Positions 6,511 to 52,706 of a stretch of 56,220 nucleotides of DNA are shown in pieces; positions within the stretch are counted from its first letter, which is position 1; every line of letters starts with the position of its first letter. The notes below the pieces were generated by a model. The model was not told where the DNA came from. It saw nothing but the letters and a program-made list of their open reading frames with translations, and made no database searches. Made by a program: the position numbers and the translations under genes. This DNA comes from Bacteroidales bacterium (GTDB taxonomy: Bacteria > Bacteroidota > Bacteroidia > Bacteroidales > F082), in the NCBI GenBank assembly GCA_017965765.1, contig JAGCPJ010000044.1, forward strand, positions 1 to 56,220, read 5' to 3'.

Positions 6511-6545
6511 ACTCCTAACTCCTAACTCCTCACTCCTCACTCCTT
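6511..6545. repeat. Heptamer tandem repeat (ACTCCTA/ACTCCTC), five units
   Basis: Five contiguous 7-bp units (ACTCCTA twice, ACTCCTC twice, ACTCCTT) fill the gap before tilS. The last unit supplies part of the TAA stop of the flavin reductase gene. Confidence 0.85.
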
Positions 6546-7110
6546 ATCTCTTCTTTTTCACCGAAAACCCAAAACCACCGATCTTCTCGCCCAACCCATA
6601 ATACTTGCCATGGGAATAGGCCAAAGGCCGAGCGTGGTTCAACTGGAAGGCGCCTGTGCCTTTATCGATCAAGCTTTCTTCGGCGTCGACGGCTACCACC
6701 TCGGCGATGAACATATCATGGGAACCCAGTTCTTTCACCTCCACGACCTTGCATTCAATGCTCAGCGGGGACTCCTTGATCAAGGGTGCCTTCACCATTT
6801 GAGCTGGCTCCGCATGGAGATGCATTTGCTTAAACTTATTGTAGTCCCGACCCGAACGCACCCCACACCAATCGGTAGCGGCAGCCAGATCCTCCGTTGT
6901 CAAGTTAATGACGAACTCTTTGTTTTTCATGATGAGCGCATGGGAATGGCGTTCCTTACGGACGGAGATATAGCACATCGGCGGGTCGGAGCAAATCGTT
7001 CCTGTCCAGCCGATGGTGATGATATTATAGTTTTCTTCGCAGTCGCCGCAGGTGACCATCACGGCGGGCAATGGATAGATCAGGGTTCCAGGTTTGAAGG
7101 GGATTTTCAT
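6544..7110 (-). CDS. Flavin reductase-like, FMN-binding split-barrel protein
   Basis: The 188-aa product matches the flavin reductase/flavoredoxin-like family. An N-terminal strand (YPLPAVMVTCG) is followed by NIITIGWTGTICSDPPMCYISVR, the region that binds the FMN phosphate in this fold, and by KEFVINLTTEDLAAATDWCG. It probably binds FMN and transfers electrons or reduces flavin. The partner is not evident. I use the ATG at 7110; the frame also permits a TTG at 7119. Its stop codon lies at the edge of the ACTCCTA heptamer tract. It follows a small exported protein gene by 36 bp and may share its transcript. Confidence 0.85.
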   Translation of the reverse strand: MKIPFKPGTLIYPLPAVMVTCGDCEENYNIITIGWTGTICSDPPMCYISVRKERHSHALIMKNKEFVINLTTEDLAAATDWCGVRSGRDYNKFKQMHLHAEPAQMVKAPLIKESPLSIECKVVEVKELGSHDMFIAEVVAVDAEESLIDKGTGAFQLNHARPLAYSHGKYYGLGEKIGGFGFSVKKKR

Positions 7111-7146
7111 ATAAAACAAAAGAACAACTGGAGTTCACCCTAAGAA

Positions 7147-7635: not shown

Positions 7636-7676
7636 AATACTGCATTATTTGGTTTAAGATAACGTTTATGGCCTGC

Positions 7677-7837: not shown

Positions 7838-7892
7838 ACGGCAAAGATAATCATTTTTCATTAAACCACAACCTGTTCGGAAATCAGAAAAT

Positions 7893-7926: not shown

Positions 7927-7946
7927 CATTTCAAATCGATTGACGA

Positions 7947-8981: not shown

Positions 8982-8988
8982 GGTCGTA

Positions 8989-10830: not shown

Positions 10831-10831
10831 A

Positions 10832-10873
10832 ATTATTAGATTTAAAGATTTAATATTTCAAGATTCAATTTGG
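10832..10873. repeat. AT-rich octamer repeat in the korA leader
   Basis: Read on the minus strand, the leader consists of near-tandem units of AAATCTTT/GAATCTTG type, with spacing of 8, 7 and 8 bp, ending just before the korA ATG. The same unit recurs at 17730-17779 and 31425-31462. Confidence 0.6.
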
Positions 10874-16251: not shown

Positions 16252-17004
16252 TCAATAAGATTTATAATGATAGGTAAGACCGAGATAAAATCGGTCCACA
16301 GGTTGTTTCACTTGAAGGTCATTGTCCATCCGGAGGAAGGCGCTGAGGGTCTGGCGTCTAGTGAGCCGGTAATCCACATTGAGCACGGTCCGCAAGTTGT
16401 CGATCACGCGTGCCTTGGGGTCGTTCACCAGCCAATGGAGTTCCGTTGAGAGTTCGTACTTGAAGCGGCTGTTGGGTCTCTGGTAGGCAATTTGGAACCG
16501 GTTACGCCAATAGATTTTAGGGTTGATGCGGTAATCGGCGACACGTTCATCCCTAAAGGTGGCCATCACACGGCTTCGGACGGAGAGCTTGAAGCGGCGC
16601 ACTGTCTCTGCATAGGTCACATCGACACCCATACGAGCGCGGTTCTCATAGTAGCCTTTGTCGTTGTAACGACGGATGGCACCCCCAGCCAATCCCAGAC
16701 GCATCCTGTTGTGCAGGCAGGGGTACTCCACCTCCACCTCATTGAGCCAACGGTCGAAACGGGAACAGTTATGGTCGAAGCGCAGTTCTTCTTCCACGCC
16801 CAACGTGAACTTACCCAGCGAAGGGCTTTGGTATTTCGCCCCCAAGATGACACCGAAGTCGGTGGAGCGTTCACTTTGCCCAAAGGCCGACAAGGCCATC
16901 ATACAAACGAAAACGAAAACTACCCTACGGATTATTTTTCGTTTTCCGTTTTCCGTTCTCCGTTTTCCGTTTTCCGTTCTCCGTTTTCCGTTTTCCGTTC
17001 TCAA
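16252..17004 (-). CDS. DUF2490-like outer-membrane protein with repeat-encoded N-terminus
   Basis: The 250-aa frame encodes a signal peptide (KIIRRVVFVFVCMMALSAFG) and a beta-rich mature part with many Arg/Tyr-containing strands (FTLGVEEELRFDHN, ARMGVDVTYAETVRRFKLSV, FKYELSTELHWLVND, TLSAFLRMDNDL), ending in KSY. This fits the DUF2490 family of small outer-membrane barrels. The first about 23 residues are three copies of RTENGKR-type sequence encoded by a heptamer array. No ATG precedes the signal peptide. The only usual start is TTG at 17004, which overlaps the DUF4956 stop (TTGA). The repeat therefore appears to have taken over the gene start, and a change of one 7-bp unit would shift the frame. 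Confidence 0.75.
   Translation of the reverse strand: MRTENGKRRTENGKRRTENGKRKIIRRVVFVFVCMMALSAFGQSERSTDFGVILGAKYQSPSLGKFTLGVEEELRFDHNCSRFDRWLNEVEVEYPCLHNRMRLGLAGGAIRRYNDKGYYENRARMGVDVTYAETVRRFKLSVRSRVMATFRDERVADYRINPKIYWRNRFQIAYQRPNSRFKYELSTELHWLVNDPKARVIDNLRTVLNVDYRLTRRQTLSAFLRMDNDLQVKQPVDRFYLGLTYHYKSY
16942..17001. repeat. Heptamer tandem repeat (TTTTCCG/TTCTCCG) at the DUF2490-like gene start
   Basis: Eight 7-bp units run from 16942 to 16997 in the order TTTTCCG, TTTTCCG, TTCTCCG, repeated, giving a higher-order 21-bp period. A partial ninth unit follows. On the minus strand each 21 bp encodes one seven-residue unit (TENGKRR). Confidence 0.92.
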
Positions 17005-17726: not shown

Positions 17727-17729
17727 GGG

Positions 17730-17779
17730 GTTTAGAGTTTAAAATTTAAAGATTTCAAGATTTATAGATTTCAAGATTC
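17730..17779. repeat. AT-rich octamer repeat between the VTC and DUF4956 genes
   Basis: On the minus strand units read GAATCTTG, AAATCTAT, AAATCTTG, AAATCTTT, AAATTTTA. The tract includes the VTC stop codon and reaches the DUF4956 ATG. Confidence 0.7.
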
Positions 17780-18559
17780 TTGGGACTTTAGTTTGTTGAT
17801 TCTGCGGAGTTTCTTCTTGAATCGGTTTTGTTTGACCTCGGGCCGGGTCATGCAAGTACCGATGCAGTACTTACTGATTTTGTAAGGTTTGATACGCAAG
17901 TCGAAGAGCACTTCCTTGAAGAGGGAGCGCGCCCGACCATCCTGTTTCAGTTCCATGACCACCAAGGGATCCATGGAAGCCGAGGTGCCAGAAACGTAGT
18001 TTTGGAAGACGAGATTGCAGTCGATGGTAAGCCGTTCGGTTTTCTCGAAATTGACCAAGGTGATGCGGTCGAAGATCGTTTCCAGAGAGGCATTCAAGAT
18101 CTCAGCAGGATAAGGTAACTCAAATGCTGCAGCCTGCAGTTGTTCGTTCAGTTCAGAGAGCCTCAAAGCCGTTTTCCGTTCTCCGTTCTCCGTTTTTAGT
18201 TCCATCCGTTTTTTCTTGGTTCGGCCTTTGTTGGTCTTATGTTTTACCTCGCAGAAGGACAGGTTGGAGTCCACATAGGTGCGAACCCGAACCTTGTCAC
18301 GCACAAGATGCCGGTCGTGATGAATCATGTACATCGTCAGCTCTGGCGTGTCGTAATACACGGTGCGATACGCAGAGAACCGCTTGCCTTCCACTTCCTG
18401 GGCAAAGTAGTGTTCACGAACGCCTTGCAGTAGGCTTATGAGCTGGTCGGTAGTCACCAAATACTTCGTGTCCACGCGGTTCATGAGTCGCACCTCTTTC
18501 ATCTCATCCAAAGTGATGGGAAGCATCGAATTCACTATGTCTAGGATCTCGGGATTCAC
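17771..18559 (-). CDS. VTC-domain (polyphosphate polymerase-like) protein
   Basis: The 262-aa product carries the tunnel-fold VTC pattern: RVDTKY (28-33), YYDTPEL (68-74), HHDRHLVRDKVRVRTY (80-95), FCEVKHKTNKGRTKKKR (102-118), DRITLVNFEKTERLTIDCNL (164-183) and VVMELKQDG (200-208). The basic and acidic residues that line the polyphosphate tunnel in VTC proteins appear to be present. VTC domains polymerise phosphate from ATP; whether this bacterial form does is inferred. Residues about 121-130 (KTENGERK) come from a heptamer insertion after the KKKR strand. The start is GTG at 18559, overlapping the previous stop as GTGA. A DUF4956 gene follows. Confidence 0.85.
   Translation of the reverse strand: MNPEILDIVNSMLPITLDEMKEVRLMNRVDTKYLVTTDQLISLLQGVREHYFAQEVEGKRFSAYRTVYYDTPELTMYMIHHDRHLVRDKVRVRTYVDSNLSFCEVKHKTNKGRTKKKRMELKTENGERKTALRLSELNEQLQAAAFELPYPAEILNASLETIFDRITLVNFEKTERLTIDCNLVFQNYVSGTSASMDPLVVMELKQDGRARSLFKEVLFDLRIKPYKISKYCIGTCMTRPEVKQNRFKKKLRRINKLKSQES
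18172..18199. repeat. Heptamer repeat inside the VTC gene
   Basis: TTTTCCG, TTCTCCG, TTCTCCG and a diverged TTTTTAG, read in frame as the minus-strand peptide KTENGERKT. Confidence 0.85.
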
Positions 18560-20286: not shown

Positions 20287-21546
20287 TTACTCGATGCGCA
20301 TGTTCGGCACCTCGGTACCGTCGTAGAAGCCTTGGTCAAGTTTCTCTTTGACTTCCTTGAAAGCGTTGAGGGTGTATTCCACGTCCTCCATGCTATGGGC
20401 GGCCGTAGGAATGATACGGAAGATGATCATGCCCTTGGGGATGACGGGGTAAGTCACCACAGAGCAGAAGATGCGGTAGTTCTCGCGGAGGTCCTTGGCG
20501 ATGTTGGTGGCTTGCACCACGTCGCCTTTGACATGTACTGGGGTGACGCAGGCTTCGGCGGGACCGATGTCGAAGCCCATGTTGCGGAAGCCGTCCTGCA
20601 AGGTACGGGTCACTTTCCAGAGTTGGGCACGGAGGCGGTCACCTTCCTCACCACGGATGATCTCGAGACGTTTCTCGCAGCCTTCCACGATGGCCAGAGG
20701 CAGTGATTTGGCGTACATCTGGGAGCGCATGTTATAGCGCAGGTATTCGATGACGTGTTTCGGTCCGGCCACGAAGCCCCCGATGATGGCCATGGCCTTG
20801 GCGTAGGCGCCGATATAGATATCCACATCGTCCATCACCCCAAAGTGTTCTGAGGTACCGCGACCGGTGGGACCCATCACGCCGAAGCCGTGGGCGTCGT
20901 CGATGAGGATGCGGAAGCTGTATTTCTGCTTCAGCTTGACGATACCCGCCAGGTCACCCAACGCTCCAGTCATGCCATACACGCCTTCGGTGATGACGAG
21001 GATACCGCCGCCGGTCTTCTCCACCACTTCGGTAGCCACCTGCAGTTTCTTCTCCAGGTCGCCCATGTCGTTGTGACGGTACTTGTATTTGTTGCCCAGA
21101 TGCAGACGGATACCGTCCAGCAGGCAGGCGTGAGCTTCGTTGTCATAGACGATGACATCGTGAGGGCTGGTCAGGGTGTCGATGGTAGAGACGATGCCTT
21201 GATAGCCAAAGTTGAACAAGTAGGCCGCCTCTTTCTTCTCAAAGTCGGCGAGTTCTTTCTCAAAATGTTCATGCATACGGGTCTGGCCCGACATCATGCG
21301 GGCGCCCATGGGAGCAGCGAGACCCCAACGGGCTGCACCTTCGGCATCTGCCTTGCGGATGGCAGGATGGTTGGCCAAACCAAGATAATTGTTCAAACTC
21401 CAGCAAAGCACCTCTTTGCCGTTAAACACCATACGGGGACCGAGTTCGCCTTCCAAGCGGGGGAATGCGAAATAGCCGTCAGCACGCTCACGGTATTGGC
21501 CAATCGGGCCACCCGAGTCTTTTGCTATTCTTTCGAAAATATCCAT
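20287..21546 (-). CDS. spt: Alpha-oxoamine synthase, probable serine palmitoyltransferase
   Basis: The 419-aa PLP enzyme belongs to the family of serine palmitoyltransferase, KBL and BioF. Visible motifs are WSLNNYLGLANHP, GARMMSGQTRMHEHFE, VYDNEAHACLLDG, ITEGVYGMTG, LIDDAHGFGVMG and the PLP-lysine region GAYAKAMAIIGGF. The N-terminal part (IGQYRERADGYFAFPRLEGE) is like the Bacteroidota Spt group, which condenses serine with an acyl-CoA to 3-ketosphinganine. I therefore prefer Spt over KBL. KBL is a reasonable alternative, as the two cannot be separated by motif alone. The divergent SDR gene is a candidate for the next step of sphingolipid synthesis. The leader (21547-21626) is largely simple repeats. 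Confidence 0.8.
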   Translation of the reverse strand: MDIFERIAKDSGGPIGQYRERADGYFAFPRLEGELGPRMVFNGKEVLCWSLNNYLGLANHPAIRKADAEGAARWGLAAPMGARMMSGQTRMHEHFEKELADFEKKEAAYLFNFGYQGIVSTIDTLTSPHDVIVYDNEAHACLLDGIRLHLGNKYKYRHNDMGDLEKKLQVATEVVEKTGGGILVITEGVYGMTGALGDLAGIVKLKQKYSFRILIDDAHGFGVMGPTGRGTSEHFGVMDDVDIYIGAYAKAMAIIGGFVAGPKHVIEYLRYNMRSQMYAKSLPLAIVEGCEKRLEIIRGEEGDRLRAQLWKVTRTLQDGFRNMGFDIGPAEACVTPVHVKGDVVQATNIAKDLRENYRIFCSVVTYPVIPKGMIIFRIIPTAAHSMEDVEYTLNAFKEVKEKLDQGFYDGTEVPNMRIE

Positions 21547-21586: not shown

Positions 21587-21626
21587 TTCCGACTTCTGTC
21601 TTCTGACTTCCGACTTCTGTCTTCCA
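21587..21626. repeat. Heptamer repeat (TTCTGTC/TTCTGAC/TTCCGAC) in the spt leader
   Basis: Five 7-bp units between 21587 and 21621 plus a partial sixth. A related AGAATTA-type repeat (from 21554) lies next to the start codon. Confidence 0.82.
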
Positions 21627-30138: not shown

Positions 30139-30495
30139 TTATACGTTCAGATATCTCATCAGCAGGTCGTAACGGTCACGCAGGTCGTTATTCTCCTCAG
30201 GAGCGCTGAACACATTGACTATGTTATAGTTATATCGATAAAAGCTATGCAGGATAGCTGTACAATCCGATTTGTTAACAAGAATGCTGACCAAAACCCG
30301 TCCCGGTTCCTCGGGAATGGTATCGACGGTCAGGCCGATGATTTTGGCATCGTTTTCCTCCACGATCCTGGCGATCTCCGAGGGACTGTAGTCATAGTTG
30401 CCCATCTCCAGTTGGATCGCACAGCTGAAAGGTGAAAGCTGAAAGGAGAAAGATTTCCAGTTTTCCGTTTTCCGTTGTCCGTTTTCAACTTTCAT
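30139..30495 (-). CDS. Truncated CBS/ACT-type protein with repeat-derived N-terminus
   Basis: The 118-aa product keeps only the C-terminal ACT-like part (YDYSPSEIARIVEENDAKII, then VLVSILVNKSDCTAILHSF, YRYNYNIV and LRDRYDLLMRYLNV). In the usual Bacteroidota protein beside nadK this follows a CBS-domain pair after a VIVLEM-type strand. Here that strand survives as AIQLEM, but the CBS pair is absent. In its place is a peptide (VENGQRKTENWKSFSFQLSP) encoded by two heptamer arrays. The ATG at 30495 overlaps the rsgA stop by 11 bp; another Met lies at 30510. It could be a shortened working protein or a decaying gene. Confidence 0.65.
   Translation of the reverse strand: MKVENGQRKTENWKSFSFQLSPFSCAIQLEMGNYDYSPSEIARIVEENDAKIIGLTVDTIPEEPGRVLVSILVNKSDCTAILHSFYRYNYNIVNVFSAPEENNDLRDRYDLLMRYLNV
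30423..30488. repeat. Paired heptamer repeats at the rsgA / CBS-ACT junction
   Basis: Four units of AGCTGAA/AGGTGAA/AGGAGAA (30423-30450) are followed after a short gap by TTTTCCG, TTTTCCG, TTGTCCG, TTTTCAA (30461-30488). The rsgA stop lies inside the second array. Confidence 0.85.
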
Positions 30496-31411
30496 AGCTC
30501 CAATCTTCATTATTGTACATTCTCAAATAGTTGTTATAGCGCCAATCGGCGATGTCACCCCGTTCCACAGCTTCTTTGACGGCGCATCCCGGCTCATGGG
30601 TATGCGTGCAGTTGGCGAAGCGGCATTGGCTCATTAGGTCGCGCATCTCCGGAAAGCGTTGCGCAAGGGTCTCCGTCTCCATATCGTAGAGTGCAAACTC
30701 CTTGATTCCCGGGGTGTCCACGATCCAGGACCCGAAAGCCAGATGATGCATCTCAGCAAAAGTGGTGGTGTGCTTTCCTTTGTTGTGGACGTCGGAGATG
30801 GCCCCGATACGGAGGTTGAGACTGGGGTCGAGGGCATTGGCCAGGGCCGACTTGCCCACGCCGGAATGGCCGGAAAGCAAGCAGATCTTACCCTGCATCA
30901 AGTCTCTCACCTTGTCCAGGTTGAAACCCGTCTTGGCTGAAATCCCGAACGAGGTGTAGCCGATGCCGGAATAGTACTCAATCAATTCCGCCATCTCCCC
31001 GATTTGGTCATCCGAGTAAAGGTCACATTTGTTGAAGACCAACGCTGTAGGGATGTGATAGGCCTCTGCAGTGACCATAAAACGGTCGATGAAACCTGTG
31101 GAAGTGCGTGGCTGGGCAATGGTAGCCACAATGATGGCCAGGTCGATATTGGCCGCGATGATGTGGGATGCCTTGCTGAGGTTCACCGACTTGCGCACGA
31201 TGAGGTTGTTGCGTGGCTCGATTGTTTTGATCACACCTGTCTCTTTTCCAGGCTCTTGCTCAAATACCACATCGTCACCCACGGCTACCGGGTTGGTGGA
31301 ACGCAACCCATCAAGGCGGATCTTGCCACGGAGACGGCATTCCCATTCCCTACCCGTCCCGTCGAGGACGATGTACCAACTACCCGTTGACTTGATGACT
31401 TTGCCTTTCAT
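30485..31411 (-). CDS. rsgA: Ribosome small-subunit GTPase RsgA
   Basis: The 308-aa product is a circularly permuted GTPase. An N-terminal OB fold (about 1-75) is followed by G4 (FNKCDL), then G1 GHSGVGKSALANAL and G3 DTPGIKEF, and a C-terminal zinc region (CRFANCTHTHEPGCAVKEAV; three Cys and His). RsgA matures the 30S subunit. The stop codon is formed within a heptamer array, so the last residues (DWSYES) may differ from the family. The -7 box lies only 4 bp above the ATG. Confidence 0.95.
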   Translation of the reverse strand: MKGKVIKSTGSWYIVLDGTGREWECRLRGKIRLDGLRSTNPVAVGDDVVFEQEPGKETGVIKTIEPRNNLIVRKSVNLSKASHIIAANIDLAIIVATIAQPRTSTGFIDRFMVTAEAYHIPTALVFNKCDLYSDDQIGEMAELIEYYSGIGYTSFGISAKTGFNLDKVRDLMQGKICLLSGHSGVGKSALANALDPSLNLRIGAISDVHNKGKHTTTFAEMHHLAFGSWIVDTPGIKEFALYDMETETLAQRFPEMRDLMSQCRFANCTHTHEPGCAVKEAVERGDIADWRYNNYLRMYNNEDWSYES

Positions 31412-31424: not shown

Positions 31425-31462
31425 GAAATTTAAAGATTTAAAATTTAAAGATTTAAAAATCG
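31425..31462. repeat. AT-rich octamer repeat in the rsgA/dprA divergent region
   Basis: On the minus strand AAATCTTT, AAATTTT, AAATCTTT, AAATTTC; same unit as in the korA leader. Confidence 0.65.
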
Positions 31463-38607: not shown

Positions 38608-39623
38608 TACTCCACAATATGTTTCACAAAAGGTATTTTTCTTATCAATTTCGTTGTATAAAGGCTTAAGACAAAGGTGAGCAGGCAGATCAGCAGGGAG
38701 GTTAAAACGTGGTTGGTCAGGTTTCTGATCACATCTTTGTAAAGCACCATCAGCCACAGATCATGCGTCAGATAGACGCCGAACAAGTCATACCGCACGA
38801 ATTCAAGCAATCGCTGGGTTCCGGTTCCGATGTGACACGAGTTTTCTTTCACGAAGACAAACAAGGCCATGGACATCATCGCCACATGCAAACTCAAGAA
38901 GGCGTAGAACTTCTCGTTGAAGGCGCCAGTATAGACCGACAATCCGATGCTTCCGCCAATCGTAGCCAGCGCGCCGATGATGCCGAGAAGATAGATGACG
39001 ATCCTTTGGCGTTTAGAAGTTTCAAGGATGGAGAGAAAATACCCTAACAAGAAGTAGCCAGCATATCCAACGATGGTGTTCATGGCGAACAGTGGTGTGA
39101 ACTGCTTGATTTCTTTGACCATGGCAAAGCTGCATGCAAGATAGCAGAGCCAGATCACCAAGGCATAACGAAGCAATTTCTCATTCGCCGCAATGGGTCG
39201 CAGCAGTGGAATCAGCAAGAAAACCCCGGCCAACATGGGAAGGAACCACAGATGATAATGCGGGGCGATCCATTCCGCTTGGAAGGGTTCTTTTTTGATG
39301 AAGCACCAAACGGTCAAAATGGCCAAGGCATAGATCAGCCACCAGGCGGCGTAAGCCAGCAACAATCTTGGGATCTTTTTTTTCAGCACCAAGCCCATTG
39401 TAATCTCCTTTTGCGGGTCAAGGTACAATGCGCCACTGATCATCACGAAAACAGGCACTGCCCAACGGACCAGGCTTCCACCAACCACTGCTACATACCA
39501 GTTAAATTGCATAAACGATAAGGGCAATACATCTGCGATGATATGGATGAGGATTACCGCAAAGGTTGCAAGCAAACGAAGGATGTCGAGATAGGCGATG
39601 CGTTGGTTAGTGCTTTGTAGCAT
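38607..39623 (-). CDS. Acyltransferase family 3 membrane protein
   Basis: The 338-aa product has about ten hydrophobic segments and the acyltransferase-3 opening RIAYLDILRLLATFAVILIH with the His of that family. Later motifs (VFVMISGALYLDP, HYHLWFLPMLAG) also match. Such enzymes O-acetylate or O-acylate surface glycans in the inner membrane. Its stop overlaps the start of the dikinase-like gene (TAATG). Since both come from one transcript, a shared carbohydrate substrate is possible but unproven. A -7 box lies 20 bp upstream. Confidence 0.88.
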   Translation of the reverse strand: MLQSTNQRIAYLDILRLLATFAVILIHIIADVLPLSFMQFNWYVAVVGGSLVRWAVPVFVMISGALYLDPQKEITMGLVLKKKIPRLLLAYAAWWLIYALAILTVWCFIKKEPFQAEWIAPHYHLWFLPMLAGVFLLIPLLRPIAANEKLLRYALVIWLCYLACSFAMVKEIKQFTPLFAMNTIVGYAGYFLLGYFLSILETSKRQRIVIYLLGIIGALATIGGSIGLSVYTGAFNEKFYAFLSLHVAMMSMALFVFVKENSCHIGTGTQRLLEFVRYDLFGVYLTHDLWLMVLYKDVIRNLTNHVLTSLLICLLTFVLSLYTTKLIRKIPFVKHIVE

Positions 39624-40748: not shown

Positions 40749-40776
40749 AGAAGTCAGAAGAAAGAAGTCAGAAGAG
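40749..40776. repeat. Heptamer repeat after gapA
   Basis: AGAAGTC, AGAAGAA, AGAAGTC, AGAAGAG in direct succession. The last two form the left arm of the following terminator. Confidence 0.85.
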
Positions 40777-40795
40777 ATTCTGGCTTCTTTTTTTA
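40762..40795 (+). terminator. gapA terminator built from the heptamer repeat
   Basis: Arms AAGAAGTCAGAA (40762-40773) and TTCTGGCTTCTT (40778-40789) pair with one mismatch around GAGA and run into seven Ts. It works in the plus direction; the minus side lacks a T run. Confidence 0.75.
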
Positions 40796-42709
40796 TTCCT
40801 TCATTTTGGCTTCAACTTCGGAGTATTTCTCCTTTATTTTGAGCGTGACAGGATGATCCTCACCAAGGGCGGACGAATAAAATCCCAAAGCCTTCTTAAG
40901 GCATTTCAAAGATTCCTCGTAATTGCCTAGATTCATGTAAATAGCACCGAGGTTGTTGTAGCACGAAGCCACCTCGGGATGGTTCTCACCAAGGATAGGT
41001 AACTTGATTTGCAAAGCCTTGTTAAGGTATTCCAAAGCCTTCGGGTAATCGCCTTGCCTATAATACATAACGCCGATGTTATTATAGTCTGTAGCCACGT
41101 CACGATGGTCATTGCCATAGACAGACAAACTGATTTTCAAGGCTTTGATATGGTATTCTATGGCTGTTTCATAGTCGCCCTTTCTTCCGTACACAGTGCC
41201 AATGTTGTTGTAGCTTACTGCAACATCGGGATGGTTCGCACCAAGGACGGACAACCGGATCTCCAAAGCCTTGTTGTAGTATTCCAACGCCTTCTCATTA
41301 TTGTCATGTTTCCAGTAGAAAAAGCCTATGTTATTGTAACTTAAGGCCACGTTTGGATGGTTCTCACCATAGACTGACAAATTGATTCCCAAAGCCTTGT
41401 TGTAGTATTCCAATGCCTTTTCTTCTTCGCCTAATTTCGAGCACACACTACCCAAATTGTTGAAGTATGATGCCACTTCAGGATGATCCTCGCCATAGAC
41501 CGACAACCAAATTTCCAAAGCCTTGTTGAGGTATTCCGAAGCCTTTTCAAAGTCGCCCAGGTCCGCATACAGCGTACCCAAGTTATTGTAGCTTACGGCT
41601 ATATCGGGATGGCTTTTACTGAGGGTGGACAATCTGATTTCCAAAGCCTTGTTGTCAAATTCCATCGCCTTCTCATAGTTGCCTTGAAACCTTGACACTG
41701 AGCCGATGTCGTTGTATCTTGTAGCCACGGTGGGATGGTTCTCGCCCAGGGCAGACATATCGATTTCCAAAGCCTTATTGAGATAGACCATTGCTTTGTC
41801 GTAATCAGCAAGATATTGCGTAACAAACCATGCCGTTTTGACAAGCCACTCCGTGTTCGTCGTATCGAGGCTTGACCTAAGTTCCAGATAATAGGCGGCA
41901 GTGTCGTTCAAATGCTTTGCACTGAAAGTCTCAAAATAGCTGTAGCAACGTCGGGCGGCTTCTTCGATGTCGGCTTGTTGAACGGCCTCCACTTTTTGAA
42001 GCTCTTCCTTTTTCTGCTGAATAGCTTGTCCACGTTGCTTAATTTCGGTTACCTGCGCGGTGATGTCGCCACGGGTCTCCAGTAATGAGTCGGCCTTGAC
42101 CAACTCACCGTTTTCGATAAAGAAGGAGACCTGACGGTAGAACTCGTCCAGCTGGTCGTAGTCCAACTCGGAGTAGCGTTTGGCCATATCCTTGATCAGC
42201 TTTTCATTGCTTTCCTGCTCCTCGTAAAGCTTCTGCAAGGCCCTGTCAAATTCTTCCTCCGTAATCTTTTGGCTTGCTCTTAATTCCTCGATCTCTTCTT
42301 CCTTTTCCTGAAGTTGTTTCAGCAGGTTCCTCCTGATTTTCCGTTCGGAGGCGACTTGGTCCTTCAATTGCTGTTCGGGCGTTTCCATCACGATAAACAG
42401 AGGATTGCCAGAGTATTTATAGGGTCTTGTACAAGCCTCCACATCCACCATTTGGTACCCCTGTTTTTTCACGGAGTCCAGTCGGAATTGCGAACCCGTC
42501 ACCGGGAAAGAGAATTTTCCATTATCGGCGTTCACCAGTACGGCGGTATGCCCTTGCACCGAGACGACGGCCCCTTTCAATCCCTGGCCAGGGACAAGTT
42601 TGCCATTGGCATCCATACGGCCTTTGGTTTTCACATAGCCCTGTTGGGTCTGGGCGACACCAAGGAGGCTCGTCAATAACAGGATATTGAGTAAGAGGAG
42701 TCGTTTCAT
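40793..42709 (-). CDS. Exported tetratricopeptide-repeat protein
   Basis: The 638-aa product has a signal peptide (ending GVAQ), a small beta domain (about 25-115) of carboxypeptidase-regulatory type (GLKGAVVSVQGHTAVLVNAD), a coiled-coil region (about 120-260) and about eight TPRs of 42 residues (about 295-620). The TPRs are of the kinesin-light-chain type (GENHPxVAxxYNNxG then YxxALEYxNKALEI). Repeats are close to each other even at the DNA level. It probably scaffolds a periplasmic or cell-surface complex. It is transcribed with the T9SS cargo gene 13 bp upstream. Confidence 0.88.
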   Translation of the reverse strand: MKRLLLLNILLLTSLLGVAQTQQGYVKTKGRMDANGKLVPGQGLKGAVVSVQGHTAVLVNADNGKFSFPVTGSQFRLDSVKKQGYQMVDVEACTRPYKYSGNPLFIVMETPEQQLKDQVASERKIRRNLLKQLQEKEEEIEELRASQKITEEEFDRALQKLYEEQESNEKLIKDMAKRYSELDYDQLDEFYRQVSFFIENGELVKADSLLETRGDITAQVTEIKQRGQAIQQKKEELQKVEAVQQADIEEAARRCYSYFETFSAKHLNDTAAYYLELRSSLDTTNTEWLVKTAWFVTQYLADYDKAMVYLNKALEIDMSALGENHPTVATRYNDIGSVSRFQGNYEKAMEFDNKALEIRLSTLSKSHPDIAVSYNNLGTLYADLGDFEKASEYLNKALEIWLSVYGEDHPEVASYFNNLGSVCSKLGEEEKALEYYNKALGINLSVYGENHPNVALSYNNIGFFYWKHDNNEKALEYYNKALEIRLSVLGANHPDVAVSYNNIGTVYGRKGDYETAIEYHIKALKISLSVYGNDHRDVATDYNNIGVMYYRQGDYPKALEYLNKALQIKLPILGENHPEVASCYNNLGAIYMNLGNYEESLKCLKKALGFYSSALGEDHPVTLKIKEKYSEVEAKMKE

Positions 42710-42722: not shown

Positions 42723-45023
42723 TTATTTGACGATCATCACCACGCCTTCCAAACGTTTGGAGACCGGTCCTTCGGGACCAGTCATCTCCACGTCACAAAT
42801 ATAGTAATAGGTGCCCGAAGGACAGGGTTGGCGGGTGTCGGAAGCACGGCCGTCCCAATTGATGAAGATGTCGTTGGTGGCAAAGACAACGCGACCCCAG
42901 CGGTTGAAGACATGGAAGTCCACTTTGTCGATCAGTTCAGCGGTGATACGCATGGGGACAAACACATCGTTGAAGGAGTCGCCATTGGGAGTAAACACAT
43001 TGGGGAGTTCATAAACCGGTTCTTCAGGTTCCGGATCCTCGTTTTCTGTGGGTGTCACATCGATCATGGCGGAATAGTTCACCAACGGTGTCGGCAGACC
43101 TTCCACGGTGTAGTGGCCAAAGGTGCGAACATAATAGCGGTACTTCACGTCGTTCTCAACTCGGTTGTCCTCAAAGGCAAGGGCTTCGGTACCGGCGATC
43201 TTGCGGAACACCGAGTCACGGGTTCTGAAGACTTCCGTGCTATCAATGATCCAAGGCACCGACTCAGTCCAAGTCAAAGAGACCTTCTCGTCGCCGGCAG
43301 TGCCGGAAAGCATGATGGCATTGGCCACGGCGCTCTTGCCTATCAACTGTCCGTTGGCGTCTTTCATCTCAACGTGATAGCTGAGCGACTGTAGTTCCGA
43401 GAGGTCCATCTCCACATCATGGAAAGTGGTGTCCACGCCAGAATATACATCTTCTATTATACCATTAGCGTTACGAATAAGACGATAGTTATATGGTTTT
43501 GTAAAATACGATTCTATGTCACGAGGTCTTACCCATTCCATGCGCATCTGCCCTGAAGCCAGGTCTTGTTCATCGCAGGACACTTTCGTCATCAAAGGCG
43601 TGTTGTTCGGAATCTGGACACACACCTCTTCGCTTGGCTGGCTTTCAACATCACCATGGAACACCGCCACTACACGATAGCAATACTCCACTCCTTGGAC
43701 GAATTCGGCACCGCCATTCGTATCCAGGAAAGATGTTGCATCGGCAGGCAGTTCGGCGATCTTCTGGTACCCTGGGCGCACGCCCGTCTCACAGGGATCA
43801 GGCTGGTAAGGATTCGAGCCCATCTTGCGATATACCCAAATGGCGGACACGTTGGAGCATGCCGTGTAGGGAGACCATGTAAGTTGAGAACGGAAAACGG
43901 AAAACGGAAAATGCTCCACTTTCCGTTTTCCGTTCTCAACTTGGAGGTTTTGGACAGCGGGACCGATGACGCTGATGTTGACCGCTTGCACGTTGGTCAG
44001 CGACACAGGTGCGGCATTGTCACGAGCTCGAACCACCACTTGGTAGGGTGACTTGCGGATGTGGTTGCACGCCGTTTGCCATGTAAAGCCGATTGTGGGT
44101 TGCAGGCCAAAGTCGGTAGGTGGAGTCAACACGGCGGGACTGTTCTCCAACGCAAAGGGAGCGCCCGAGGCTTCCAAGGTGACTTGGTTGCCATTGGGGT
44201 CGTAGGCAGAGATCAAGAAGTTGAGAGATGCACCGGCGACGACGCAGGTGTCGGAGATCATGGAGATCACCGGAAGGTCGTTGTCACAGGCACTGATCAA
44301 GATCTGCATGTCGCGAATCACCGAGCCGATCTTCACGCCATGGCGCCATTCCTCCACCAAGATGGCGACATTATATTCTCCTTGAAGCACAGGATTCTCC
44401 CATTGGAGCAGACCAGTCACGGGATCGATATCGAAAAAACTGGAAGCTTGGGGATAGGTGTACCCGGGGATATCTTGGCCGTCAGCGCCTTTGCAGGGCA
44501 CTAGCCGATAACTAAGGCTGTCGCCGTCAGGGTCGTATGCCGAGGGATGATGGTAATAAGGTTTCCCGACGCAACCCTTGTCCACCGGGGCGTTAAGCAG
44601 TTGCACCGAGTTATTGAACCCCAAATAGGGGTTGATCACCAGTTCCGTTTCGATATACATAGGGATGGCCACAGAATTCGGCACATTCACCACGCCGTAG
44701 TTGCGGTTGGGGTCTTCCATGCTGATCACGTAAGTGCCTGAAGAGGAGAATTCGTGCACCATCTTATAGACACTCAGGAAGTAGTCATCGCCGAGGTCCT
44801 GAAACACCTGTCGGGGCATCATGTCGGCGAAGCCATCCCCCCAGTTCACGAGGAGCGAGTCGCGTTGGACTCCCGCCTCGCTGGAGGTGTAGTAACACGT
44901 CATCGTAAACTCATAGCTGTTGCCTCCCTTCCAAAGATAGGTGATCTCGGCTGCCCGCTGGTGGGTCGCCCAAGCAGGAAAAGCTGTCAGCAAGAAGAGG
45001 CAGATAAGTAAAAGTTTACGCAT
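42723..45023 (-). CDS. Large secreted protein with type B T9SS sorting domain
   Basis: With the ATG at 45023 the product is 766 aa and has a signal peptide (ending AWA). The body carries cadherin/Ig-like modules (DPDGDSLSYRLV, AYDPNGNQVTLEAS) and two fibronectin-like modules (about 390-590). The C-terminal about 90 residues are the gliding-motility-associated (CHU_C) type B sorting domain (LPNVFTPNGDSFNDVFVP, VFNRWGRVVF, WDGR, PSGTYYYIC). It is probably exported through T9SS and attached to the surface. A 62-bp palindrome of heptamers is inserted at the border of the first fibronectin-like module. Confidence 0.9.
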   Translation of the reverse strand: MRKLLLICLFLLTAFPAWATHQRAAEITYLWKGGNSYEFTMTCYYTSSEAGVQRDSLLVNWGDGFADMMPRQVFQDLGDDYFLSVYKMVHEFSSSGTYVISMEDPNRNYGVVNVPNSVAIPMYIETELVINPYLGFNNSVQLLNAPVDKGCVGKPYYHHPSAYDPDGDSLSYRLVPCKGADGQDIPGYTYPQASSFFDIDPVTGLLQWENPVLQGEYNVAILVEEWRHGVKIGSVIRDMQILISACDNDLPVISMISDTCVVAGASLNFLISAYDPNGNQVTLEASGAPFALENSPAVLTPPTDFGLQPTIGFTWQTACNHIRKSPYQVVVRARDNAAPVSLTNVQAVNISVIGPAVQNLQVENGKRKVEHFPFSVFRSQLTWSPYTACSNVSAIWVYRKMGSNPYQPDPCETGVRPGYQKIAELPADATSFLDTNGGAEFVQGVEYCYRVVAVFHGDVESQPSEEVCVQIPNNTPLMTKVSCDEQDLASGQMRMEWVRPRDIESYFTKPYNYRLIRNANGIIEDVYSGVDTTFHDVEMDLSELQSLSYHVEMKDANGQLIGKSAVANAIMLSGTAGDEKVSLTWTESVPWIIDSTEVFRTRDSVFRKIAGTEALAFEDNRVENDVKYRYYVRTFGHYTVEGLPTPLVNYSAMIDVTPTENEDPEPEEPVYELPNVFTPNGDSFNDVFVPMRITAELIDKVDFHVFNRWGRVVFATNDIFINWDGRASDTRQPCPSGTYYYICDVEMTGPEGPVSKRLEGVVMIVK
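43881..43942. repeat. Inverted heptamer repeat inside the T9SS cargo gene
   Basis: The left arm (43881-43903; AAGTTGAGAACGG then AAAACGG units) and the right arm (43920-43942) are exact 23-bp inverted copies with 16 bp between them. The element is read in frame on the minus strand. Confidence 0.92.
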
Positions 45024-45041
45024 TGAAAAAATTTTGGTCTG

Positions 45042-45049
45042 CAAAGGTA
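45042..45049 (-). promoter_or_regulatory. -7 box of the T9SS cargo gene
   Basis: Minus-strand TACCTTTG, 18 bp above the ATG at 45023. Confidence 0.45.
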
Positions 45050-47294: not shown

Positions 47295-47752
47295 AAGAGA
47301 CAAATGAAAGTATCTTATTGACTGTCAAGAAGATATTTACAGAATACCTTCATCAGCACAACCTACGAAAGACTCCAGAACGGTTCGCGATCCTACAGGA
47401 GATCTACTCCACCCAAGGGCATTTCGACATCGAGTCGCTCTACAACAAGATGAAGGACAACAAATACCGTGTCAGCAGAGCCACCTTGTACAACACCATC
47501 GAGTTGCTTTTGGACTGCGACCTGGTCATCAAGCACCAATTCGGGCACAACTGCGCCCAGTACGAACATTCGTACAAGTTCAGGCAGCACGACCATTTCG
47601 TGGACTTGGACACTGGGCAAGTGCTGGAGTACTGCGATCCCAGGCTGATGGAAATCCAGCGAACCATCGAGGAAGAACTGGGAGTGGAGGTGACACACCA
47701 TTCGTTGGTGTTTTATGGGAGGAAGAAGACAGAAGACAGAAGCAAGAAGTAA
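47291..47752 (+). CDS. fur: Fur-family transcriptional regulator
   Basis: The 153-aa product has the Fur winged helix ([38 protein letters not shown]) and the dimerisation domain with metal-binding His ([19 protein letters not shown]). The CxxC structural zinc site usual after the HDH motif is not present (LDTG instead of LDCG), and no second Cys pair is seen, as in some Bacteroidota Fur proteins. The C-terminus (KKTEDRSKK) and the stop codon come from a heptamer array. The gene is coupled to spoT; purA follows 25 bp later. Confidence 0.9.
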
Positions 47753-47772
47753 GAAGTAAGAAGTAAGAAGTA
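47724..47772. repeat. Heptamer array over the fur stop and purA leader
   Basis: Seven units of 7 bp: AGAAGAC twice, AGAAGCA, AGAAGTA four times. The fur stop TAA lies in the fourth unit region; the array ends 5 bp before the purA ATG. Confidence 0.93.
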
Positions 47773-47777
47773 AGAAT

Positions 47778-49076
47778 ATGAACAAGATAGACATTTTATT
47801 AGGATTACAATGGGGTGATGAAGGCAAAGGCAAGGTAGTGGATGCGCTTACCCCGAATTATGATATCGTATGCCGTTTTCAAGGGGGACCCAATGCCGGT
47901 CATACCATTGAGTTTGAAGGCAAGAAATTCGTGTTGCACAACATCCCTTCAGGTGTGCTGACGCCAGGTTGCGTCAACCTGATCGGCAACGGAGTCATCA
48001 TTGAGCCCCACATCCTGAAAGGAGAGATTGAAGGCTTGCGTGAGGCAGGTTTCGACTTGCGGCAGACACTGAAGATTGCCAACCGTGCCCATCTCATCCT
48101 CCCCACCCACCGCGCCATAGATGCCGCCAACGAGAAAGCCCTTGGCAAGATGAAAGTCGGCACCACACTGAAAGGCATCGGACCGACCTACACCGACAAG
48201 ACCGCCCGCAGAGGTTTGCGCATCGGCGACATCAACACGGCAAATTTCCGCGAGAAATACGAGCAGCTGAAGAAAGCGCACCTGCAGCAGATTGCCGGGC
48301 TGGGCTTCGACATGCAGGGTTTCCAACTCGACGGTCTTGACTTTGCCGAGTATGAGAAGTTGTGGTTTGAGGGTATTGAATACCTGAAGCAATACCAATT
48401 CGTCGATGGCGAATACTTTATCAACGAGGCCCTGGATGCTGGCAAGAAAGTGTTGGCCGAAGGCGCCCAAGGCTCCATGCTCGACGTGGATTTCGGCAGC
48501 TATCCTTTCGTCACCTCGTCGAACGTCATCGCCGCCGGGGTATGCTCCGGCTTGGGGATCGCCCCTAGCAGGGTCGGCAAAGTCTATGGCATCTTCAAGG
48601 CCTATTGCACCCGCGTGGGCACTGGACCCTTCCCCACCGAACTGTTCGACAAGACCGGCGACACCCTCCGCGAAAACGGTCATGAGTTCGGCGCCACCAC
48701 CGGCCGTCCACGCCGCTGCGGATGGCTCGACCTGCCCGCACTGAAATACGCCGTGATGCTCAGCGGCGTGACCGACCTGATGATGATGAAGTCCGATGTG
48801 ATGGACGACTTCGAGACCATCAAGGTGGCTACCGCCTATCGTTACCAAGGCAAAGAAACCCAACACCTGCCTTTCGCTGCCTGCACAGAGACCATGGAAC
48901 CGGTTTACAAGGAATTAGAAGGATGGAGACAGAAGATAGAAGACAGAAGACAGAAGGCAGAAGACAGCATTCCTGAGAAGCTGGAAGAGTATATTAGATT
49001 TATAGAGCATTATGTCGGCGTGCCGATCAACTTCGTCTCCTACGGCCCCGACCGAACCCAAAATATTTTACGTTAA
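47778..49076 (+). CDS. purA: Adenylosuccinate synthetase
   Basis: The 432-aa product has the GTP-binding opening GLQWGDEGKGKVVD, HxxPSGVL, GIGPTYTDKTARRG, and near the end GATTGRPRRCGWLD. It makes adenylosuccinate from IMP and Asp with GTP. Between about residues 383 and 396 a heptamer array inserts the peptide DRRQKAED and its flank before the conserved C-terminal IRFIEHYVGVPINFVSYGPDR. The frame is kept, and the insertion falls just before the C-terminal segment. The ATG is 5 bp after the fur-side array; the ATP-grasp gene abuts the stop. Confidence 0.96.
   Translation: MNKIDILLGLQWGDEGKGKVVDALTPNYDIVCRFQGGPNAGHTIEFEGKKFVLHNIPSGVLTPGCVNLIGNGVIIEPHILKGEIEGLREAGFDLRQTLKIANRAHLILPTHRAIDAANEKALGKMKVGTTLKGIGPTYTDKTARRGLRIGDINTANFREKYEQLKKAHLQQIAGLGFDMQGFQLDGLDFAEYEKLWFEGIEYLKQYQFVDGEYFINEALDAGKKVLAEGAQGSMLDVDFGSYPFVTSSNVIAAGVCSGLGIAPSRVGKVYGIFKAYCTRVGTGPFPTELFDKTGDTLRENGHEFGATTGRPRRCGWLDLPALKYAVMLSGVTDLMMMKSDVMDDFETIKVATAYRYQGKETQHLPFAACTETMEPVYKELEGWRQKIEDRRQKAEDSIPEKLEEYIRFIEHYVGVPINFVSYGPDRTQNILR
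48926..48966. repeat. Heptamer array inside purA
   Basis: AGAAGAT, AGAAGAC, AGAAGAC, AGAAGGC, AGAAGAC (48931-48965) with a partial unit before them. Encodes EDRRQKAED-type sequence in frame. Confidence 0.9.
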
Positions 49077-50228: not shown

Positions 50229-50231
50229 TCC

Positions 50232-52706
50232 ATGCGAAAAAGCATCTTATTCCTCCTTACCGCAGTGTTGATGGCAACCTGCACGCAGGAACCGAAACAA
50301 AAGGCCTTCGACGAAACGGAAGCCCTGAAGTTCTTATTCCAGTACATGCCACTCGGCGACAGTGTGGATTACACGGAGGACTACTTTCGCGAATGCGTGA
50401 AATATGCCTTTTTGGCCAAAGAAGAACTGCCTTGGGGAAAGGACATCCCCGAACGGGAGTTCAAGCATTTCGTACTCCCCCCGAGAGTCAACAACGAGAA
50501 CCTCGACCGGTTTCGGGCAACTTATTATGAAACGTTGAAAGCAAGAGTGAAGGATTTGACGCTCTACGAAGCCGTGCTGGAAGTGAACCACTGGTGTCAC
50601 GAGCACGTGAATTACAAAGGCTCAGACAGCCGCACTTCTGCTCCCATGGCCACCATCAAGACCTCATGGGGACGATGCGGCGAAGAATCCACCTTGTTGG
50701 TAACCGCCTTGCGAACGGTAGGCATCCCTGCACGGCAGGTCTATACCCCACGTTGGGCCCATTGCGACGACAACCATGCTTGGGTAGAAGCATTCGTTGA
50801 CGGAGCCTGGCATTTCCTTGGTGCCTGCGAGCCCGAGCCCGTACTTGATTTAGGCTGGTTCAACGAACCCGCTTCTCGCACCCTGCTGCTCCACACCAGG
50901 GTGTTTGGAGATTACGACGGACCAGAGGAAGTCATCAGCCGCAACAACAACTACACCGAGATCAACGTGGTCGATAACTATGGCAAGACCGCCAAGACCA
51001 CTTTCACCGTGGTGGATGTAACAGGGGCACCACAACCAGGAATTGAGGTGGAGTTCAAGATCTACAACTACGCCGAGTTCTGCACAGTGGCACGAAAGAC
51101 GACCGACGAAAACGGCCAGACCTGGCTCACTGCGGGGTTGGGCTGCTTGATGGCCTACGCCGCCAAAGACGGGCAGTTCGGATTCCAAGTGTTCAAATCA
51201 GGCGAGCAAAGCGAGGTGACCATCACGCTGGACCATCAGGAAGGCGCCGCCGACAGTTTCGAATTCGACATGGTGCCTCCCCCACCCACTAGCGTATTGC
51301 CCACCGTCAACCCGGAAATGCGGGCGCTCAACGACCGACGCCTTGCCCAGGAAGACTCACTACGCAACAGCTACATCCAATCCTGTAAAGAGGCGCAAAA
51401 GGAACTGATCTCCCAAACAGGAAACAAGACCCTGTGCAGCATCTATGAAAAGACTTGGGGCAACTACCAGACCATCGCCGATTTCATGGATTACGCTAGA
51501 GAAAAAGGAGAAGAAACACCCGCAATACAGCTTTTGGAATGCCTGTCAGACAAAGACTTAAGGGATATCTCATTGGACGTCCTTAAAGATCACTTTAATT
51601 CCGAATTCCGCATTCCGCATTCCGCATTCTCCCTCTCCCCTCGCATCAGCAACGAGATGATTGTGCCTTGGCGTAAGACCCTTTCCGAGTTCTTCCCAAA
51701 AGAGGAAGCCTTGAACTATCGGGAGAATCCCAGCTTGCTGGTGGATTGGGTAAAGCAAAACATCAGGGTCGATGAGTCACTAAACCCCCAGCGCATTCCC
51801 ATCTCCCCGTTGGGTGTGCTGAAAGCCCTGAAAGCCGATCGGCATTCTCGTGACATCTTTTTTGTCGCCCTGGCCCGCAGTTTAGGCATTGAATCCCAAA
51901 TCAACCCAGTCAACGGCAACGTGGAATACAACCGCAATGGCAATTGGAACAAAGTGGACTTTGAAGCGGCAGAGCCTACGGAAAGGGAAACTGGTTATTT
52001 GGACATCCATTACGATCCCATCGCCTCCATGCCCAATCCGAAATACTACAGCCATTTCAGCATCAAGAAGTTTGATGGACAAACCTTCCAGTTGCTCGCT
52101 TACGATGCCCAAGATCCCGGCATAGACGACGGCATGACGCTGTCTTCGTTTGAGCATCCACTTCCGCTGGAAGCAGGTTATTATATCCTTACTGGAGGCA
52201 CCCGACTGAATGATGGTACCGCACTGACACACAGCGAGTTCTTCACAATTAGGCCCAAGGAGACCACACCTATTGACCTCATTTTGAGAGAAGAAAAAAG
52301 AGAGGCTAAAGTCCTTGGACATTTTAATGCAGGGAAACTCACCGAAGGCGTTGATGGTCTTTACATCCTCGGCATCCTGGACCAAGGCAGCGAACCCACC
52401 ACCCATGCCATGCAAGACATCAGCACTTTCAGCGCTGCGTTTGAAGAAAAAGGCCTCCCGATGTACTTTTTATTCGAATCCAAAGAGACCTACGGAAAGT
52501 TCAATCTCAGAAACTTCAACTCCTTACCTTCCAACATCCATTACGACTTGTTTGACACCGATATATTGAAACAGTTGAACGAGGGACTCCAGCTTGAAAA
52601 TCTGCCCATTTTCATTATTGCAGATGCCTCTACGGGCGAAGTGGTTTTCAAAAGCCAAGGATATACCATTGGATTAGGGGAACAATTGTTGAAAGTTTTG
52701 GATTGA
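50232..52706 (+). CDS. Large lipoprotein with transglutaminase-like protease fold
   Basis: The 824-aa product has a lipobox (LMATC). A transglutaminase-like domain follows (about 90-250) with Cys149 in WGRCGEESTLL and His182 in DDNHAWVEAF; the third acidic residue is probably within CEPEPVLDLGW. A carboxypeptidase-regulatory-like module comes next (about 258-330; VVDVTGAPQPGIEVEFKIYN). The C-terminal half ends with a thioredoxin-like segment (FEEKGLPMYFLFES, LPIFIIADASTGEVVFKSQG). It probably cleaves or cross-links peptides at the cell surface. A heptamer insertion lies at about residues 457-467. It is the last gene of the spoT string. Confidence 0.85.
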   Translation: MRKSILFLLTAVLMATCTQEPKQKAFDETEALKFLFQYMPLGDSVDYTEDYFRECVKYAFLAKEELPWGKDIPEREFKHFVLPPRVNNENLDRFRATYYETLKARVKDLTLYEAVLEVNHWCHEHVNYKGSDSRTSAPMATIKTSWGRCGEESTLLVTALRTVGIPARQVYTPRWAHCDDNHAWVEAFVDGAWHFLGACEPEPVLDLGWFNEPASRTLLLHTRVFGDYDGPEEVISRNNNYTEINVVDNYGKTAKTTFTVVDVTGAPQPGIEVEFKIYNYAEFCTVARKTTDENGQTWLTAGLGCLMAYAAKDGQFGFQVFKSGEQSEVTITLDHQEGAADSFEFDMVPPPPTSVLPTVNPEMRALNDRRLAQEDSLRNSYIQSCKEAQKELISQTGNKTLCSIYEKTWGNYQTIADFMDYAREKGEETPAIQLLECLSDKDLRDISLDVLKDHFNSEFRIPHSAFSLSPRISNEMIVPWRKTLSEFFPKEEALNYRENPSLLVDWVKQNIRVDESLNPQRIPISPLGVLKALKADRHSRDIFFVALARSLGIESQINPVNGNVEYNRNGNWNKVDFEAAEPTERETGYLDIHYDPIASMPNPKYYSHFSIKKFDGQTFQLLAYDAQDPGIDDGMTLSSFEHPLPLEAGYYILTGGTRLNDGTALTHSEFFTIRPKETTPIDLILREEKREAKVLGHFNAGKLTEGVDGLYILGILDQGSEPTTHAMQDISTFSAAFEEKGLPMYFLFESKETYGKFNLRNFNSLPSNIHYDLFDTDILKQLNEGLQLENLPIFIIADASTGEVVFKSQGYTIGLGEQLLKVLD
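51598..51632. repeat. Heptamer array inside the transglutaminase gene
   Basis: ATTCCGA, ATTCCGC three times, ATTCTCC; read in frame as FRIPHSAFS. Confidence 0.88.

Follow-up and report, generated by a model that had tools for sequence, protein, structure and literature searches.

Dispersed heptanucleotide arrays of a Bacteroidales genome and the concerted differences of their motifs at fixed length inside genes

Short tandemly repeated repetitive (STRR) sequences of cyanobacteria are dispersed heptanucleotide arrays; they belong to another phylum, and the arrays described here are likened to them by description only. In this study we analyse a set of 7-bp tandem arrays in a 56,220-nucleotide stretch of DNA, hereafter the window, which is a whole contig (C38, JAGCPJ010000044.1) of the 2.0-Mb draft genome of a Bacteroidales bacterium (GCA_017965765.1; 78 contigs, 76% complete). 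The initial annotation of this DNA noted that heptanucleotide repeats are known from cyanobacteria, which is correct, and they are also known from Xanthomonas and Beggiatoaceae. According to the available text of Rehm et al. 2015 (PMC4692102), GGGNATC and GGGGA(C/T)T heptamers with one variable base are found in Xanthomonas and Nostoc. The GGGNATC repeats lie on the sense strand near or overlapping stop codons, singly or as inverted pairs, and are mostly kept between the same genes in relatives; they are over-represented in non-coding DNA, G-rich and quadruplex-forming, with four units preferred. MacGregor 2015 (PMC4679880) describes, in the part available, TAACTGA direct repeats in Beggiatoaceae, Cyanobacteria and five Bacteroidetes. 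Most of these arrays stand directly before start codons, some overlap stop codons and some lie inside reading frames, and related heptamers are rarely or never repeated in a TAACTGA genome.

The accessible text of both papers treats as open the questions why short repeats in bacteria prefer a 7-bp unit and by what route they spread. The genus of the present genome comprises dozens of related genomes in which the same sites carry different motifs, making the question testable largely by comparison. Coding genes can serve as a ruler here, as the reading frame forbids the gain or loss of 7 bp, and motif differences at fixed length within the PPDK-like, VTC and transglutaminase-like genes therefore help to tell copying between arrays from slippage in a single array.

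Period-7 arrays throughout the genome

The own-genome sample, consisting of the window and 40 further stretches (598,806 bases, 30% of the assembly; one stretch is N over 2,870 bases), contained 62 period-7 tracts. Among periods 4 to 13, only 7 was frequent: periods 4, 5, 6, 10 and 13 yielded no tract, period 8 nine, period 9 five, period 11 one and period 12 three. Five dinucleotide shuffles of the same sample gave no tract at period 7, which bears out the genome-wide excess over shuffled sequence expected in the initial annotation. Extrapolation suggests about 200 tracts in the 2.0 Mb. Pattern searches of the whole genome returned 191 matches to three GGANAAC units and 80 to three GGAATKC units, scattered over many contigs, and the reversed-pattern controls for both returned none. 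Chance low-complexity sequence is ruled out by these contrasts (62 tracts against 0, and 191 and 80 matches against 0), and we give it practically no weight. An assembly artefact is unlikely, since the same sites carry arrays in separate relatives. An RNA family was likewise dropped as a candidate, an Rfam scan of the window having produced no match at gathering score. With period 7 far above both chance and the other periods, and with tracts dispersed genome-wide, the arrays share the properties of heptanucleotide STRR sequences and long simple sequence repeats. We conclude that they are a real feature and read them as a variant of the heptanucleotide repeats already described in dispersed form (STRR, also called heptameric simple sequence repeats).

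Within the window, exact runs of at least 12 matches numbered ten at lag 7 and zero at every other lag from 1 to 13. Tandem Repeats Finder (period 7, or 14/21) recovered all loci of the initial annotation within a few bases, at 6511, 16935, 18169, 21587, 30423/30454, 34890, 40749, 43889/43920, 47723, 48927 and 51598; nine period-7 tracts were left at a stricter setting. The positions listed earlier thus held, but the tracts at 30423 and 43881 proved to be purine/pyrimidine pairs of opposite orientation. The arrays of the window, with the strand of each, are as follows.

6510..6546, minus strand: AGGAGT[TG] array starting at the stop codon of a flavin-reductase-like gene (6544-7119, minus strand); absent from the equivalent place in the relative G022
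16934..17003, minus strand: GGA[AG]AAC array of about nine units with a 21-bp super-period, between DUF4956 and DUF2490 genes, overlapping the DUF4956 gene stop codon and filling the whole gap to the DUF2490 gene; G022 has a variant array at this site
18168..18196, minus strand: GGA[AG]AAC array, in frame in a VTC-domain gene (17771-18559)
21587..21624, minus strand: AGAAG[NN]-type array directly upstream of an aminotransferase-family gene (20287-21546, minus strand); at this place G022 has heptamer-like sequence with two motifs
30423..30452, plus strand: TGAAAG[CG]-type array, one arm of a purine/pyrimidine pair, in a small open reading frame (ORF) after rsgA (30139-30510, minus strand) that has no Pfam match
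30454..30486, minus strand: GGANAAC array, the second arm of this pair, adjoining the rsgA stop codon
34890..34921, minus strand: GGANAAC array, in frame in a PPDK-like gene (34468-38757)
40749..40775, plus strand: AGAAGTC/AGAAGAA array directly after the glyceraldehyde-3-phosphate dehydrogenase gene, part of a putative terminator-like hairpin ending in a T run (read by eye)
43881..43942, no strand assigned: inverted GGA[AG]AAC pair with 23-bp arms AAGTTGAGAACGGAAAACGGAAA, in frame in gene 42723-45044 (minus strand), which has a C-terminal type IX secretion signal domain; of the two relatives compared, G022 carries a GGANAAC pair and G054 a GGAGTG-type array
47724..47777, plus strand: AGAAGAC then AGAAGTA array from the end of a Fur-family gene to the purA start codon, where it stops, providing the C-terminus and stop codon of the Fur-family gene; the gap holds different sequence in relatives (L088 left out of the comparison)
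48927..48967, plus strand: AGAAGAC array, in frame in purA (47778-49076)
51596..51632, minus strand: GGAAT[GT]C array, its purine strand antisense, in frame in a transglutaminase-like gene (50232-52706, plus strand)

Motif and length at coding sites

At several orthologous sites, related species have arrays of equal length and 7-bp phase, and yet all or most of the units carry another heptamer, changed in concert. The transglutaminase-like loop is built of ATTCCGC units here and of ACTCCTC units in G054, with all 10 differences falling in two of the seven columns. At the PPDK-like loop GGANAAC stands here and a TGAAAGG-like heptamer in G019. After rsgA the units are TTTCAGC-like in this genome but CTCTCAC in G036, and the VTC loop has GGANAAC here and GGAAAGT in G009. 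Permutation tests for the concentration of differences in columns were applied to seven comparisons, which were picked by eye together with the array limits, and five of them were significant: transglutaminase here against G054 (P < 1 in 10,000), PPDK here against G019 (P = 0.0016), the site after rsgA here against G036 (P = 0.0005) and G036 against G033 (P < 1 in 10,000), and VTC here against G009 (P = 0.02). The same test at periods 5, 6 and 8 gave P values of at least 0.31 in all seven. The open-access literature searched yielded no earlier description of such a concerted motif replacement at fixed length in coding genes, and a text search by motif strings returned no title on bacterial repeats.

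A few heptamer motifs dominate each sampled genome, recurring at unrelated loci, and these motifs differ between species. Three GGTGARA units matched 0 times in G000, 40 times in G019 and 211 times in G009, and three GGAGTKR units 48 times in G000, 21 in G019, once in G009 and 49 in G054. In three of the four cases checked, the motif that the relative has at the site is abundant elsewhere in its own genome: GGTGARA in G019 (40, PPDK site), GGAGTKR in G054 (49, transglutaminase site) and ARAGTGG in G009 (32, VTC site). The last of these counts, used here as support for the VTC site, comes from the reversed GGTGARA control. That control was not clean, since its pattern, ARAGTGG, is one of the heptamer motifs that these genomes carry; it matched 57 times in G036, 32 times in G009 and 31 times in G033.

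Lengths at five sites inside genes or at gene edges were compared across 30 loci each from 55, 58 and 59 genomes with a match, and for VTC across 20 loci from 49 genomes with a match. Relative to most relatives the net change is +21 for PurA, +21 for VTC, +24 for the PPDK-like gene, +18 for the ORF after rsgA and -30 for the transglutaminase-like gene. The initial annotation had proposed in-gene lengths in multiples of 21 and selection for a seven-residue outcome. Neither proposal was supported as stated: all five changes are multiples of 3 and only those of PurA and VTC equal 21, and survival in coding sequence needs multiples of 3 with no extra selection required. The clean insertion boundaries it had predicted were seen in PurA and VTC. 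Of the 25 closest PurA loci, 24 lack the purA tract, an insertion of exactly 21 bp, and the 25th (L101) bears the same 21 bp in a decayed form; the native purA sequence CAGAAGATAGA resembles the heptamer motif. Sharing of the repeat residues by distant orthologues would have refuted the interpretation given in the initial annotation, and here the outcome is mixed: the residues are not shared, but in eight PurA loci outside the near group (L104-L111) the linker is five residues longer than in near relatives, with unrelated residues. This place in the PurA linker is therefore naturally variable in length.

The VTC site is 58 nt long in this genome, G054 and G009; 18 of 19 relatives could be located, and the remaining 16 of them have 37 nt. 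The PPDK-like site spans 51 nt in this genome as well as in 7 of the 29 relatives, and 26-27 nt in the other 22. After rsgA there are 94 nt here and in three relatives, 115 nt in two and 76 nt in five, with 19 of 29 not located, so that one 21-bp length step separates species at this site. At the transglutaminase-like site this genome and G054 both have 53 nt, against 81-83 nt in 24 of the 29 relatives; two others have 47 nt and two 113 nt. The two 113-nt loops carry a different repeat. In G033 and G036 (L211, L236) the transglutaminase loop holds a GTCATTGCGAGG-type repeat, indicating that the same loop accepts unrelated repeats.

Spread, anatomy and placement of the arrays

Its PurA relatives place this genome among uncultured Bacteroidales of the herbivore gut (rumen and hindgut). 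Other members of the genus (20 stretches, two of them from G022) contained 19 period-7 tracts in 326 kb, each other period from 4 to 13 reaching at most four, and other families of the order Bacteroidales contained two in 286 kb. In the PurA neighbourhoods of further Bacteroidota 13 tracts were counted over 376 kb; their motifs are different ones, among them AATTGAA, AATGGAT and AACATTG. Expressed per 100 kb, this genome has 10.4 tracts, G022 22 (in 200 kb), G033 10 (140 kb), G051 5 (100 kb) and G010 3.3 (60 kb). Exact (TTTTCCG)3 is present in 6 of the 59 genus relatives, but the 40 genomes taken from the order's other families all lack it (7 of 100 genomes have it when this one is counted). 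It occurs 30 times in G000 and 18 times in G022. At the sites compared, either the presence of the tract or its motif varies between relatives.

Arrays are mostly 3-10 units long, and the 62 of the own-genome sample comprise 17 motifs. Most families are a heptamer with one free base, for example GGA[N]AAC and GGAAT[GT]C. In 78 GGANAAC units, column 4 reads A in 47, G in 27, C in 2 and T in 2, and any other column is off in at most 4; in GGAAT[GT]C one column is split 31 to 32 and the last is off in 7 of 63 units. Unlike these one-free-base families, AGAAG[NN] arrays vary in two columns. Two or more mismatches are present in 98 of the 150 arrays from all groups, and in these 98 the mismatches pile up in one column (174 observed, 128 expected, a maximum of 144 in 2,000 simulations). 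Array ends tend to be phase-locked as well: the first family starts ..AAC|GGA and often ends GGANAA(T) (27 arrays), and the second starts AAT[GT]C and ends GGAATT(A) (19 arrays). The flanks of these 27 and 19 arrays have no conserved body beyond the repeat and thus lend no support to a mobile element with such a body, of the miniature inverted-repeat transposable element (MITE) or repetitive extragenic palindromic (REP) type.

Pairs less than 90 bp apart are head-to-head in nine cases and tail-to-tail in none, and some inverted pairs have similar loops. Those between head-to-head arrays look alike at L038, L041, L276 and L295, for example AGCCTCCGGAGGTAATA and ATTGCCTCAGGAGGTTA, and perhaps represent a shared loop element. 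That inverted arms are exact mutual copies was considered and rejected, because the variant letters differ between the arms of several pairs; each gene end therefore seems to have its own array.

The purine-rich strand has its 5' edge at a stop codon in 54 of 153 arrays, against 15 of 153 for the other strand, when reading frames of at least 150 codons are considered. By set, the counts on the purine strand are 23 of 62 in the own sample, 15 of 44 in G022, 5 of 14 in G033, 2 of 9 in other genus stretches and 9 of 24 in the PurA neighbourhoods; those on the other strand are 7, 4, 0, 3 and 1, respectively. Random genome positions fall at a stop codon in 1.3-1.7% of cases. As these positions were drawn genome-wide and not from intergenic DNA only, the comparison between strands is the safer evidence, and its binomial value of 2.6e-6 is indicative only, the 153 pooled arrays being partly non-independent (paired arms, homologous neighbourhoods). 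The 3' edge shows no enrichment of start codons, with 16 of 153 arrays having one there on the purine strand and 15 of 153 on the opposite strand, against about 6% at random. By crude, mechanical ORF calls, in which some ORFs extend through arrays, 24 of the 62 own arrays lie inside an ORF, 17 at an ORF edge and 21 between genes. Phase-variation repeats switch the frame of surface or variable genes; the genes bearing arrays here include PurA, PPDK-like, VTC and Fur, with the reading frame passing unbroken through several of the arrays. The stop-codon position, the strand bias, the single free base and the concerted heptamer change were not part of the initial annotation.

Other repeats were observed alongside the heptamers. 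A second, smaller family of period 8 (ATTTAAAG-like) lies at 10838-10869, 17733-17778 and 31426-31458; the nine strict period-8 tracts of the own sample are not all of the ATTTAAAG-like motif, and where the 17733 tract lies here, an array of AAAAGAT heptamers stands in G022. A palindromic repeat, GTCATTGCGAGG ... CCTCGCAATGAC, occupies 5659-5755 inside an open tilS-like gene (5143-6471). Its end sequence occurs, with at most one mismatch, in 18 copies on both strands of the 599-kb own sample, and G022 has a short heptamer tract at this site instead. A 126-bp tandem repeat at 41355-41588 lies in a TPR-repeat gene (40793-42709), as expected for such proteins.

Possible origins of the arrays and comparison with described repeats

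The reading best supported by these data, at slightly below an even chance, is that the arrays spread and stay alike by non-reciprocal copying between dispersed arrays. Such copying could proceed by gene conversion or by replication template switching over about 25-35 bp. New sites may be born where the local sequence already resembles the motif, or through template-switch insertion, and coding sites would retain only frame-preserving changes, so that copying over an array of fixed length would be tolerated there and 7-bp gain or loss would not. Stepwise duplication predicts an excess of identical neighbouring units; the copying of ready-made arrays predicts shared variant strings and would also permit motif change at fixed length inside genes. 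In the own-sample GGA[AG]AAC arrays, neighbours are alike in 15 of 49 cases, fewer than the 24.3 expected at random (P = 0.004), and 0 of 18 arrays of at least three units are uniform. A genome-wide list, drawn from the first 100 of 191 GGANAAC matches and chained into 54 arrays (three non-A/G arrays were excluded), gave 66 like neighbours where 77 were expected (P = 0.03; its data overlap with those of the own-sample test). The variant string AGAA recurs in 12 of the 51 A/G arrays at unrelated loci, against 4.0 expected and 0 of 4,000 shuffles; it was chosen after the list had been viewed, among 16 possible four-letter strings. Growth purely from local seeds, as PurA suggested, is weakened by this shared string and by the motif differences at fixed length.

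Several observations weigh against copying. With G022 and G033 pooled, like neighbours number 41 of 83 (45.4 expected, P = 0.17) and 7 of 29 arrays are uniform, and genome-wide 9 of 51 are uniform where 10.2 were expected. GGAATKC and AAAAGWT arrays have no shortage of like neighbours, and those of AGGAGTK tend towards blocks (P = 0.04 pooled), which fits slippage; slippage therefore probably contributes. Two of the seven concerted-change comparisons were not significant (VTC here against G054, P = 0.18; PPDK here against G033, P = 0.12). The GGTGAGA array after rsgA in G036 is the only GGTGARA array found in that genome (two overlapping matches; genome 91% complete), so no donor is visible there. 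All genomes compared are draft metagenome-assembled genomes (MAGs), and we infer copying from comparisons between arrays, no recombination event having been seen directly.

If local replication slippage with a preferred 7-bp step made and homogenised the arrays independently at each site, which we regard as unlikely though the most serious rival, the exact period of 7 whatever the motif would follow. A favoured step of this size has been ascribed to the DNA stretch held by the polymerase (Mrazek and co-workers 2007, via the available text of PMC4679880; the same idea appears in that of PMC4692102). The exact 21-bp gain in PurA from seed-like native sequence is in line with slippage, as are the 21-bp step after rsgA, the lone GGTGAGA array in G036, the AGGAGTK blocks, the pooled set without a neighbour deficit and the uniform arrays at their expected rate. 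It accounts poorly for a few motifs recurring at unrelated loci, for the shared AGAA string, for the neighbour deficit in the own GGA[AG]AAC arrays and for coding arrays that change motif without changing length, though each 7-bp step would break the frame. A less probable account gives the arrays a function, as has been suggested for TAACTGA repeats: a nucleic-acid-binding protein (of the S1 or cold-shock kind, or similar) would read them in steps of seven bases, and the motif would shift as the preference of this binder shifts. The mostly free base in a fixed column, the stop-codon position with its strand bias, the head-to-head excess (9 against 0) and the like placement in Xanthomonas and Nostoc (PMC4692102, in the part available) speak for a binder. 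Several unrelated motifs coexisting per genome, arrays in the PurA, PPDK-like and VTC coding loops without an evident regulatory position, the lack of (TTTTCCG)3 in 53 of 59 genus relatives and the unenriched start codons at the 3' edge speak against it.

We consider it very improbable that a dedicated copying or writing machinery rewrites the arrays of a species, core genes included, to current heptamer words with one free position; were this true, each genome would bear a changeable, species-specific seven-base signature. Still further down in probability is a templated process, a telomerase-like repeat adder working from RNA or protein, that writes a species-specific heptamer with one loosely copied position. 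The single free column at a constant place, the tendency of ends to phase-lock and the interspersed variants in part of the data would suit such a writer, but several motifs per genome would need several templates, and addition at ends does not yield rewriting at fixed length inside genes. Copying between arrays remains the reading we prefer, tentatively.

Rickettsia palindromic elements offer a precedent for repeats tolerated in frame at permissive places of protein genes. They are longer palindromes, and the heptamer arrays differ from them in having no conserved body beyond the repeat. Stop-codon placement and the single free base are already known features of heptamer repeats (PMC4692102 and PMC4679880, in their available text). 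TAACTGA repeats resemble the present arrays in being short heptamer arrays, some at stop codons or in frames, and in including a few Bacteroidetes; unlike here, they comprise one motif, and the text available of PMC4679880 describes no motif change at fixed length at orthologous coding sites. TAACTGA itself is absent among the 17 motifs of the 62 own-sample arrays (30% of the assembly). With the GGGNATC repeats, as described in the available part of PMC4692102, the arrays share one variable base, genome-wide spread, occurrence singly or as inverted pairs, sense-strand placement at stop codons and, for the most part, retention between the same genes in relatives. They are not assigned to that family, because in 61 of the 62 own arrays, all except one GGGGAGT array, neither G nor C stands three or more times in succession, and these arrays hence lack its G-tract and quadruplex character. 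They further differ from the GGGNATC repeats, as far as the available description goes, in that here one genome carries several motifs, core genes contain some of the arrays in frame, and related species have different motifs at one and the same site.

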